DNA of 64,000 nucleotides from Serratia plymuthica (GTDB lineage Bacteria > Pseudomonadota > Gammaproteobacteria > Enterobacterales > Enterobacteriaceae). Shown here piece after piece: positions 40,164 through 43,817 of this stretch (positions are counted from its first letter, which is position 1; each line of letters opens with the position of its first letter). The DNA is taken from the NCBI RefSeq assembly GCF_018336935.1, contig NZ_CP068771.1, positions 4,092,001 through 4,156,000 on the forward strand, in the 5' to 3' direction. The translations under genes and the position numbers were made by a program. The notes under the pieces were generated by a model. That model ran no database searches. It was not told the DNA's origin and saw nothing but the letters and a program-made list of their open reading frames with translations.

Positions 40164-40705
<542 letters not shown>

Positions 40706-41719
40706 ATGCGAGTACTGGGTATAGAAACCTCCTGCGATGAAACCGGAATTGCAGTGTATGACGATCAGGCCGGTTTATTAGCGAATCAGTTGTACAGCCA
40801 GGTGAAGCTGCATGCCGATTACGGCGGCGTAGTGCCGGAGCTGGCCTCCCGCGATCACGTGCGTAAAACCGTGCCGTTGATTCAGGCGGCCTTGAAAGAA
40901 GCGAACCTGACCGCCGCCGACATCGACGGCGTCGCCTACACTGCCGGGCCTGGCCTGGTGGGGGCGTTGCTGGTCGGCGCCACCGTCGGTCGTGCGCTGG
41001 CGTTTGCCTGGAACGTGCCTGCGGTGCCGGTGCACCACATGGAAGGCCACCTGTTGGCGCCGATGCTGGAAGACAATCCGCCGGCATTCCCCTTTGTCGC
41101 GTTGCTGGTTTCCGGCGGCCACACGCAGTTGATCAGCGTGACCGGCATTGGGCAGTATGAACTGTTGGGCGAGTCGATAGACGATGCGGCCGGTGAAGCC
41201 TTCGATAAAACCGCCAAGCTGCTTGGGCTGGATTACCCCGGCGGGCCAATGCTGTCGAAGATGGCGCAACAGGGTATTGCGGGCCGTTTCACCTTCCCGC
41301 GTCCGATGACCGATCGCCCGGGGCTGGATTTCAGCTTCTCCGGGCTGAAGACCTTTGCCGCCAACACCATCCGTTCTAACGGCAATGATGACCAGACGCG
41401 TTCGGACATCGCCCGCGCGTTCGAAGATGCGGTGGTGGATACGCTGGCGATCAAATGCAAACGTGCGCTGGAGCAGACGGGCTTCAAACGCCTGGTGATG
41501 GCCGGCGGCGTCAGCGCCAACCGCACTCTGCGCAGCAAAATGGCGGAAATGATGCATAAACGCGGTGGCGAGGTGTTCTACGCCCGTCCGGAATTCTGTA
41601 CCGATAACGGCGCGATGATCGCCTATGCGGGCTTGGTGCGATTGAAAAGCGGCGCCAACCCGGAACTGAGCGTTTCGGTGCGCCCGCGCTGGCCGTTGGC
41701 TGAACTGCCTGCGGTATGA
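40706..41719 (+). CDS. tsaD: tRNA N6-adenosine threonylcarbamoyltransferase TsaD
   Basis: Catalytic subunit of the TsaBDE complex that puts the threonylcarbamoyl group on A37 of ANN-decoding tRNAs (t6A). 337 residues, identical in length to E. coli. ASKHA-fold motifs: [20 protein letters not shown], metal-binding histidines in [14 protein letters not shown], the [11 protein letters not shown] phosphate loop, [22 protein letters not shown], and [13 protein letters not shown] near the C-terminus. GGGAAAGGGTA precedes the ATG. The downstream neighbours are two unrecognised genes instead of the ttd genes known in E. coli. Confidence 0.97.
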
Positions 41720-41780
41720 AAAAACGGCAGTAAACCAGCATTGTTCTGAATCACATTTTGCATTAATGGATGGAACCAAA

Positions 41781-42350
41781 ATGCCAAATATTTCAATACG
41801 TCAGCATGGAGCTGACGCCATTGACACAACCAATCGATATTTTCTCGATACGGGCTTGCCTCTTATTGCAAATACGCTGAGTCAACAAGATTTGGCATGG
41901 TGTATGGCGATGGTGCGTAATTTACCAGAGGAAAAGAGGTTGCCCTGGGAAACGGTGAACGCTTCTTTAGATGATGACGAAGCGTTCAATTTTGCTTTCA
42001 AGCTCTTGGATGCAATGGATCGACCAGCAGGGGCCTGTGCGTGTGATTATATTCAGGCAGAGCAGGTTCTGAACGTTAACATGTTGCAGAATTTCTCACC
42101 GGAAGGCTCAGTGCTTGATGGAAGGATGTTGACCTATGCACTTGTCACTATCGTCTTTTTTTTGGCTGATACTGAAGGGACTGGGGTGCGATTGATGTTT
42201 CCGGTTAACGATGGAGTCGCCGATTACTATATCAATCGCCACCAATTTGTCGATATCACCGGTGGGGCAAAGTTAATACTGTATCGCTCAGCCGATGAGC
42301 TTTCGGCATGGTTCTCGACGCTTCAGCTACCTTTGGTTGATGGTGAGTGA
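41781..42350 (+). CDS. Unrecognised protein, possible degenerate 2OG-Fe(II)/prolyl-hydroxylase fold (islet gene A)
   Basis: 189 residues from ATG 41781, which has GGA five bases upstream; a 41766 ATG would add five residues but has no visible ribosome-binding site. The N-terminal half is mixed helical (LPLIANTLSQQDLAWCMAMV). The C-terminal half has the order of a double-stranded beta-helix: LNVNMLQNFSPEGSVLDGR, LTYALVTIVFFLAD, GVRLMFPV, FVDITGGAKLILYRSADELS. This resembles prolyl-4-hydroxylase strands around DGR..T..YYL and the LLIF.S strand, but the iron-binding HxD and distal His are not seen (VLD and a His-free DELSAWF). The fold call is inference from pattern only. Base composition is visibly A+T-richer than tsaD and plsY, a sign of acquisition. 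Gene B follows directly. Confidence 0.6.
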   Translation: MPNISIRQHGADAIDTTNRYFLDTGLPLIANTLSQQDLAWCMAMVRNLPEEKRLPWETVNASLDDDEAFNFAFKLLDAMDRPAGACACDYIQAEQVLNVNMLQNFSPEGSVLDGRMLTYALVTIVFFLADTEGTGVRLMFPVNDGVADYYINRHQFVDITGGAKLILYRSADELSAWFSTLQLPLVDGE

Positions 42351-42401
42351 AATATGAGCAATAATAAAAGCAGTAACAACCTATGCAAAAAGGAGTTAGG
42401 T

Positions 42402-42677
42402 ATGGTCGGTCAAACAACTAAAGTCAAAACACCTAAATCCTCTTACAAAGTGGTTTCTACTATTGTAACCGCAGAAGGTTCTACGTTAGTTATTGAGGAT
42501 GGTGAAGGGTTGAAAACCATAGCCATTACTCCTCGCGGTAAAAAAATCAGCGCATCGAAAAGTGAGTTGTACACGGCGATGGTTCGAGCTGCGCCTGCCT
42601 TGAAGGTGGCTGAATGTTTACCGGAACCTGAGGGCGTCTGTAATACGTCAAAGTATCCTGTAAAAGTTAAAGCGTGA
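42402..42677 (+). CDS. Unrecognised small basic protein (islet gene B)
   Basis: I do not recognise this protein. The frame is open from ATG 42354, three bases after gene A, but ATG 42402 has a strong AGGAG six bases upstream and is preferred, giving 91 residues. Sequence features: a Lys/Thr-rich N-terminus (TTKVKTPKSSYKV), alternating hydrophobic residues suggesting beta strands (VVSTIVTAEGSTLVIEDGEG, KTIAITPRGKKISA), a short helix SELYTAMVRAA, and a C-terminal segment with two Cys, AECLPEPEGVCNTSKYPVKV. No signal peptide or membrane helix. It is A+T-rich like gene A, and both end before a shared palindromic terminator, so the two probably form one operon. It could be a substrate, antidote or subunit of gene A's product; nothing in the sequence decides this. 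Confidence 0.55.
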   Translation: MVGQTTKVKTPKSSYKVVSTIVTAEGSTLVIEDGEGLKTIAITPRGKKISASKSELYTAMVRAAPALKVAECLPEPEGVCNTSKYPVKVKA

Positions 42678-42683
42678 TTGTAA

Positions 42684-42705
42684 AAGGCCGGAAATTTCCG
42701 GCCTT
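42684..42705. terminator. Bidirectional terminator between islet gene B and plsY
   Basis: Perfect 22-base palindrome AAGGCCGGAAATTTCCGGCC+TT. On the minus strand it continues TTTTAC, so it most clearly terminates plsY; on the plus strand ATAACTT follows. Confidence 0.8.
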
Positions 42706-42711
42706 ATAACT

Positions 42712-43350
42712 TCAGGATTCTTTCTTTTCTTCCGGCTCCGCCGCATCCGCTTTTTTCTTGCGGAACTTGTCCCAGATTTTCCCTTCCTGCCCACGCCACA
42801 GGCGTTGGATATTGTCATGGTGCCGCATCAAAATCAGGCAAGAAAGCATCGCCACCGGGAAGGTGAACTGCGGCTTGAACCACCAAACGTAAAAAGGGGC
42901 AATCAAGGCGCTGATAATCGCGCCCAGCGAGGAGTAACCGCTAAGCAGCACGGTCAGCAGCCAGGTGCCGGTCATCAGGCCGGTAAGATCCCAGCCTATC
43001 GGCGCTATGGCCCCAAAGGCAGTCGCCACGCCTTTGCCGCCGCGGAAATGGAAGAACACCGGGTAGATGTGCCCGACGCAGGCGGCGATCGCCGTCAGCC
43101 CCAGATACAGCGGCGGTATCTCCAGCTTGTACGCCAGCCAAACCGGCAACATTCCTTTGAGAATATCGAACACCAGCACCGCCGCCGCCGCCAGGCGACC
43201 GCCGATGCGCAGGACGTTGGTGGCTCCTGGATTCCCTGAGCCATGTTCACGCGGATCGGGCAGCCTGGCGATCCGACAAACCAGGATCGCACTGGAAACT
43301 GAGCCACACAGATACGCGAAGATAATCATGCCAAGCGCGGTAGCACTCAT
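42712..43350 (-). CDS. plsY: Acyl-phosphate:glycerol-3-phosphate acyltransferase PlsY
   Basis: Integral membrane acyltransferase starting phospholipid synthesis from acyl phosphate; 212 residues (E. coli 205), about five to seven helices. Conserved motifs: [36 protein letters not shown] (motif 1), [20 protein letters not shown] (motif 2) and a charged cytoplasmic tail [15 protein letters not shown]. The ATG at 43350 ([17 protein letters not shown]) is chosen; the 28 codons upstream overlap the promoter region shared with folB and are not membrane-like. Divergent from folB. Confidence 0.95.
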
Positions 43351-43457
43351 AACGCGGTTCCGTTTAATAATGGTCGTTTTACTAGCAACATCTATGGATA
43401 ATACGCATATTCCGCTGGAAGTGGTATCCGGCAAGGCTAAAAACAGAGAATGACGTG

Positions 43458-43817
43458 ATGGATATCGTATTTATTGAAGAGCTTACCGTTATTACTACCA
43501 TTGGCGTTTATGATTGGGAACAAACCATTCGCCAGAAGCTGGTGTTCGATATCGAAATGGGCTGGGACAACCGTCAGGCCGCAGCCAGCGACGACGTAAA
43601 CGACTGTCTGAGCTATGCCGATATCAGCGAAGCCATCATCCAGCACGTAGAGCCGAATCGTTTTGCGTTGGTGGAGCGGGTGGCAGAGGAAATATCTGAA
43701 ATTTTACTCCAGCGCTTCAATTCCCCGTGGGTCCGTATTAAGGTCAGCAAACCGGGCGCAGTTGCACACGCCAGCCGGGTAGGGGTCATTATTGAGCGTG
43801 GCACTCGGCCGGTGTGA
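43458..43817 (+). CDS. folB: Dihydroneopterin aldolase / epimerase FolB
   Basis: Folate-pathway enzyme converting 7,8-dihydroneopterin to 6-hydroxymethyldihydropterin and glycolaldehyde. 119 residues (E. coli 122), tetramer-forming T-fold. Motifs: [20 protein letters not shown], the catalytic region [28 protein letters not shown] with the substrate Glu, and [23 protein letters not shown] 43458 is used; a GTG one codon earlier is less likely. Confidence 0.96.

Follow-up and report, generated by a model that had tools for sequence, protein, structure and literature searches.

What is a short A+T-rich islet of two closely spaced open reading frames (ORFs) doing between the genes tsaD and plsY of Serratia plymuthica, and how did it come to be there? 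The islet lies in a stretch of 64,000 nucleotides (contig NZ_CP068771.1, positions 4,092,001 to 4,156,000), hereafter the window, and consists of ORF A followed on the same strand by the smaller ORF B. An earlier note, made from the letters of the window alone, had taken the two for a small horizontally acquired system, and this is supported by our analysis. As to function, we hold with a probability of about 0.5 that A and B form a compact mobile module that works like a reverse-order toxin-antitoxin (TA) system with a new small partner. The layout of the pair resembles that of PacTA or TacAT, with a GNAT-fold protein in a TA-like arrangement in which the partner is new. In the proposed mechanism, A and B would be made from one transcript, possibly riding on that of tsaD, since no + strand promoter is listed before A; B would bind A and keep it harmless, while free A would modify or bind a target in the host. 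Phages, plasmids and chromosomes that carry the pair might benefit through addiction or through defence against other phages. Binding, the toxicity of A, the direction of the inhibition, the target and the benefit are inferred.

The first support comes from the regularity with which the two genes occur together. Wherever a surveyed locus has an A frame of 140 amino acids (aa) or more, a match to a profile of B lies downstream on the same strand or is fused to A, and no intact A without B was found among such frames; in four loci (L039, L040, L041 and L047) A is present as pieces of 68-79 aa, and there B has no match. These are not independent cases, since the profile was built from 25 B sequences and many loci are near copies. 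When one of 18 clusters was left out at a time, 20 of the 32 B sequences were still recognised at E<0.01, a test in which only the E-values were used, because the background contained unfiltered B copies and no B beat its best row; the kinship of the other 12 rests on position and motif. As to the specificity of the profile, among the 3109 distinct small ORFs of all the loci, 44 match the profile at E<0.01, and 42 of these are downstream of an A. Several B sequences outside the profile were matched as well, at 8e-10 (L027), 1.2e-7 (L113 and L116) and 1.6e-7 (L115), and more weakly at 1.3e-3 (L114), 1.5e-3 (L111), 4.5e-3 (L117) and 0.07 (L081). As separate genes the aligned B relatives encode 48-94 aa, mostly a helix and then an E-x-x-G-basic tail, and this tail with its E..G and basic residues is by eye the most shared part. 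For B of the window no family was found in Pfam, NCBIfam, PHROGs or PADLOC at E<=10, and neither a helix-turn-helix (HTH) nor a DUF1778/ribbon-helix-helix (RHH) domain; a protein database search returned a single match, B itself. A and B are fused into a 246-aa protein in Providencia and a 250-aa one in genome G118, and in a single-chain model of A and B, A is well folded and B is placed without confidence. The pair has the type II TA trait of a conserved effector and small partner on mobile DNA.

Nine remote A-like relatives outside the family (L118, L119 and L121-L127) also have a small ORF lying no more than 20 bp after A, with no match to B; they possibly represent a wider class of such pairs.

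The second support comes from A. The earlier note had called both ORFs unrecognised, which holds for Pfam, NCBIfam and PADLOC, none of which has a match for A. It does not hold for PHROGs, in which A matches phrog_4350, a family of unknown function (E 2.9e-11, residues 24-151 of 189), nor for UniRef, which names several relatives of A N-acetyltransferases; the assignment of a GNAT fold to A is for this reason not new in itself. A homologue search with A gave 15 proteins and a profile search 117, those named by source being mostly 'hypothetical protein' of Klebsiella, Proteus, Citrobacter, Cronobacter, Photorhabdus, Edwardsiella, Yersinia, E. coli and others, all of the Enterobacterales, with Moritella outside that order. 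One further candidate, from Pyxidicoccus (L002; 28% over residues 56-184), was discounted, its frame reading unlike A by eye. All 81 members of the alignment, the window included, match phrog_4350 at E<=0.001 (best 1.3e-102). The predicted structure of A, with a predicted local distance difference test score (pLDDT) of 93, has a GNAT fold, and its closest structural counterpart is the reverse-order toxin PacT, on a par with TacT3.

The lack of the classical acetyl-CoA motif weighs against the reading that we prefer. This P-loop motif, given in PMC7180214 as R/Q-x-x-G-x-G/A, occurs at the aligned P-loop columns in 0 of the 81 members, and in one of the 81 when residues 81-135 of each are searched throughout. 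Against Pfam and NCBIfam the 81 have only scattered single-member matches (E>=0.0085), which we take as chance, and no Pfam acetyltransferase at E<=0.1; a profile search of PDB sequences returned 19 rows (E 0.068-5.7), none of them a GNAT. We therefore call A a GNAT-fold protein and not an acetyltransferase, as it has neither the acetyl-CoA signature nor a Pfam acetyltransferase match. The loop of the family is mostly H-P-L-x-G-x-M (H in 62, P in 60, L in 80, G in 81 and M in 71 of 81), where G114, the middle Gly of the P-loop motif, is kept in every member. W56, G84 and F105 are likewise invariant, K74 is found in 79 of 81, and Y150 in all 79 rows having a letter at that column. The family thus has a residue signature of its own, without the classical acetyl-CoA one.

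The fold and the basic tail of B also admit a different arrangement, in which A is an acyltransferase or a binder and B its substrate, the basic C-terminal tail being modified or held, with no toxicity, or in a variant with a role in resistance. The best Foldseek matches of A include NatD, in one case in complex with a histone-tail peptide, the tail is what B relatives share most, and A and B are fused in Providencia; for the variant, PMC2701414, of 2009, deemed antibiotic resistance likelier than TA function for GNAT-RHH and GNAT-Xre pairs. NatD is, however, one GNAT among many matches, the acetyl-CoA signature is missing from A, and B evolves faster than A, with ratios of replacement to silent substitution rates (dN/dS) of 0.70, 0.42, 0.20 and 0.27 in four comparisons. 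We consider such an arrangement unlikely.

For A, seven comparisons gave corresponding ratios of 0.05-0.16, the silent sites being saturated in some of them, and the ratio of tsaD, used as a yardstick, is 0.03; A is under purifying selection. Broken copies do occur: A is broken in G017, G022 (L023), G062, G100 and G169, although sequencing error is possible in drafts, and B in these genomes is open in G017, G062 and G100, apparently damaged in G022 and not seen in G169. Such copies would fit a passenger left over from an earlier insertion, tolerated between the tsaD stop and the palindrome that follows B and functionless now, as would the comparison of the window B with its sister copy L001 (S. 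plymuthica NBRC 102599), from which it differs by 9 replacement and 4 silent changes (dN/dS 0.70, which rests on 13 changes and is uninformative). Neither frame is interrupted in the window or in L001, however, A is 98% identical between these two at a dN/dS of 0.08, and W56, G84, F105 and G114 are retained throughout the 81 members. The neutral decay that the earlier note had named as speaking against its proposal is thus not seen in A, with B uninformative in this respect, and we regard a mere relic as very improbable.

The third support is the range of places in which the pair is found. In many genomes the chromosomal genes that flank A and B, named by eye, are unrelated from one site to the next; the pair is also found on a conjugative Citrobacter plasmid, where a tyrosine recombinase gene and a toxin gene of the RelE/ParE type are close by, in viral contigs and in prophages of E. 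coli O157:H7. The annotated Q-like antiterminator gene of Escherichia phage Eeyore has A as its next neighbour on the + strand, and A likewise follows a Q-like gene, named by eye only, in viral contigs L048-L050 and locus L085; in phage mEp460 the pair is gp23 and gp24, between the annotated integrase and excisionase, and in L081 A is near an integrase-like ORF (by eye). No match was obtained when E. coli genomes were searched with the Eeyore pair, and a scan of viral contigs with a close subset of A gave no relative. Places after Q or beside the integrase are classical for phage cargo, and from these places A might be seen as a phage-born accessory effector (a moron) directed at the host or at competing phages, serving for instance to exclude superinfecting phages, to counter defences or to tune late expression, with B as an assembly or adaptor partner and no TA pair at all. 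The same pair is, however, found between chromosomal genes in whose vicinity no phage gene was recognised by eye, and on the Citrobacter plasmid beside a recombinase and a toxin gene, so a purely phage-borne role seems doubtful to us.

The distribution of A agrees with mobility. Relatives at E<=0.001, the own genome included, occur in 17 of 30 Serratia, 17 of 149 family genomes and 16 of 394 order genomes, which is patchy, and the window genome has one copy. In a tree of 30 rows, A of the window shares a clade (95/95) with the copy of S. plymuthica NBRC 102599 and a protein from a metagenome, while the other Serratia copies fall into a separate nine-row clade (100/100) that holds non-Serratia rows too, or on distant branches; since they fall apart in this way, Serratia has probably gained such modules several times. 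By identity, A of the window is nearer to proteins of other genera, being 55% identical to the Klebsiella protein and 50% to that of Proteus, against 44-47% for full-length copies elsewhere in Serratia. The G+C content of A is below that of the rest of the locus in 14 of 14 loci, which were hand-chosen.

Another chromosomal lineage of the pair was noted in Serratia L020, L022, L023 and L025, beside a LysR-type regulator (by eye).

The most suggestive hint from context is the swapping of an antitoxin-type domain with A in one slot. A search of complete E. coli genomes with the mEp460 pair gave 563 matching records, of which 361 match along 80% or more of its length, and A alone matches 361 records, the two lists not having been compared record by record; the other 202 match the pair in part, and the seven of these that were listed match B only. 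As many of the genomes are clonal, such counts do not equal independent events. In the two B-only prophages that were opened (L095, 4986-5974; L097, 3986-4974), B stays and A is replaced by a Panacea-domain gene (Pfam SocA_Panacea) and a 128-aa gene with no Pfam match. DNA of this Panacea pair was found in 205 E. coli records, and the Panacea gene with its 128-aa partner is a candidate TA pair of its own.

How the module relates to known systems bears on what is new in it. Like PacTA of Pseudomonas aeruginosa (GNAT-Xre, PA3270/PA3269), it has the GNAT gene first and the partner downstream, with A as the putative toxin. It differs in that PacA has an HTH domain and B matches none, that PacT is said to carry a conserved CoA-binding motif whereas A lacks the classical one, and that identity to A in structural alignments is 8-10%. 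The GNAT-RHH systems (TacAT, AtaRT, ItaT and KacAT), which are further marked by acetylation of aminoacyl-tRNA, have a DUF1778/RHH antitoxin, which is absent here, where the partner is downstream, and the acetyl-CoA motif is missing from all 81 members of A. As both the antitoxin domains and the acetyl-CoA signature differ, we have not filed the pair under PacTA or TacAT. Pairs that combine a Panacea (DUF4065) antitoxin with a GNAT or another toxin come close through the two prophages above, and according to PMC9177977 GNAT-DUF4065 pairs are a described TA family; B, however, is not a recognised Panacea domain, as it has no Pfam match. The same paper mentions acetyltransferases preceded by short divergent ORFs as possible pairs with unidentified antitoxins, whereas in our pair the short ORF comes after. 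The family phrog_4350, to which every aligned A belongs, names A only, gives no function, and leaves out B and the chromosomal spread. In open-licence PMC literature no paper was found for phrog_4350 by name, and in that on GNAT toxins, Panacea and prophage cargo the pair is not described in the titles and abstract openings of the matches listed. Tentatively, and not as our leading claim, one may go further and see in the pair a class of mobile modules that is so far undescribed and lacks a transposase. In it the gene for a GNAT-fold effector that has lost the acetyl-CoA signature, but not its own invariant residues, would precede that for a neutraliser that is small, mostly basic and devoid of any known DNA-binding domain; lambda-like phages, plasmids and Enterobacterales chromosomes would carry the module for addiction or against phages, and the effector would perhaps use a donor other than acetyl-CoA.

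How the pair sits in the window can be read from the following features.

40706..41719, + strand (same strand as the islet): tsaD, left flank, 337 aa; named from the earlier note and from synteny with E. coli K-12
41720..41780, + strand: A+T-rich leader from the tsaD stop to A; the promoter scan listed no + strand promoter-like site
41781..42350, + strand: ORF A, 189 aa, GNAT-fold, phrog_4350 family, putative toxin-like effector
42390..42395, + strand: Shine-Dalgarno sequence AAGGAG ahead of the likely start of B, read from the sequence
42402..42677, + strand: ORF B, 91 aa, small basic partner, putative neutraliser
42684..42705, strand-less: perfect palindrome of 22 bases, ancestral element of the tsaD/plsY junction
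42712..43350, - strand: plsY, right flank, convergent; start codon picked by eye within the listed ORF 42712-43434

The A+T-rich character claimed for the islet is confirmed by 300-base windows, which have 43-48% G+C across 41700-42750, against 60-66% in the interior of tsaD and 57-63% in that of plsY. As nearby gene-poor DNA (40200-40799 and 43350-43649) also dips to 46-49%, the comparison of ORF with ORF is the telling one: A has 46.7% G+C (46.8% at third codon positions) and B 44.2% (38.0%), against 61.4% for tsaD and 59.0% for plsY, and A is the lowest of 52 ORFs of the window (mean 58.6%, standard deviation 3.5), a set of mechanically called ORFs without overlaps, each 120 aa or longer, for which B is too short.

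A has an alternative ATG at 41766, and an in-frame ATG at 42354 would lengthen B to 107 aa (42354-42677). A weak + strand promoter-like match lies at 42337-42365, ahead of B, and an Rfam scan of 41000-43500 found no RNA family. A and B share one reading frame, split by TGA-AAT (42348-42404), and the 16 codons from ATG 42354 to ATG 42402 are open and of the same length in Proteus (L005) and G084 (L026, L088), so a longer isoform of B or a coupled start is possible. A readthrough fusion of A and B is not taken as the default reading, because B has its own Shine-Dalgarno sequence and the relative L043 has an in-frame stop just ahead of the start that matches the likely start of B. The 146 bp over the A-B junction (42262-42407) are identical to L001, against about 4% differing sites across the whole aligned stretch, and the promoter scan listed - strand promoter-like sites at 42389-42361 and 42253-42226; an overlapping signal or an antisense promoter is perhaps the cause of the identity.

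The junction itself can be followed through the genus. plsY is present in all 30 Serratia species genomes examined. A and B lie between tsaD and plsY in two of them, the window genome and G016 (gaps of 995 and 994 bp, gap lengths being approximate throughout), and 22 have a gap of 33-91 bp without the pair; in five the gap extends beyond the fetched reach and in one plsY is broken. The earlier note would have been refuted by a pair common to all Serratia, normal in composition and of assigned function, which is not what is seen; the horizontal origin is supported by the occupancy of the junction, the tree and the identities. Of the 22 short gaps, 19 have a GGCCGG...CCGGCC palindrome and three a diverged form (counted by eye), and the pair sits between the tsaD stop and this palindrome. 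Since the short gaps without the pair carry the same kind, the palindrome is an ancestral element between the convergent tsaD and plsY; the perfect palindrome that the earlier note had read as a terminator of the islet's own is real, but it does not belong to the islet. A terminator scan gave it no score, so a terminator role is at most putative. Other fillings exist. In five Serratia (L128-L132) the space between the two genes is taken up by three ORFs, one of 733 aa and two of 567-615 aa, which in the one genome tested include a TonB-dependent receptor (the 733-aa ORF) and an ABC transporter (a 580-aa ORF), an iron-uptake-like cassette; in E. coli K-12, where the earlier note had placed the ttd genes, ttdR-ttdABT lie between plsY and tsaD. 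With these alternative fillings beside A and B, its proposal of a swap site was right.

The junction of tsaD and plsY can thus be viewed as a swap site whose short form is defined. If the preferred reading of A and B as a TA-like module is true, enterobacteria and their phages would carry in their mobile DNA a further widespread family of effector and partner, without an assigned function so far, and this would raise the question whether a GNAT fold without the acetyl-CoA loop signature can be a toxin, and by which chemistry.
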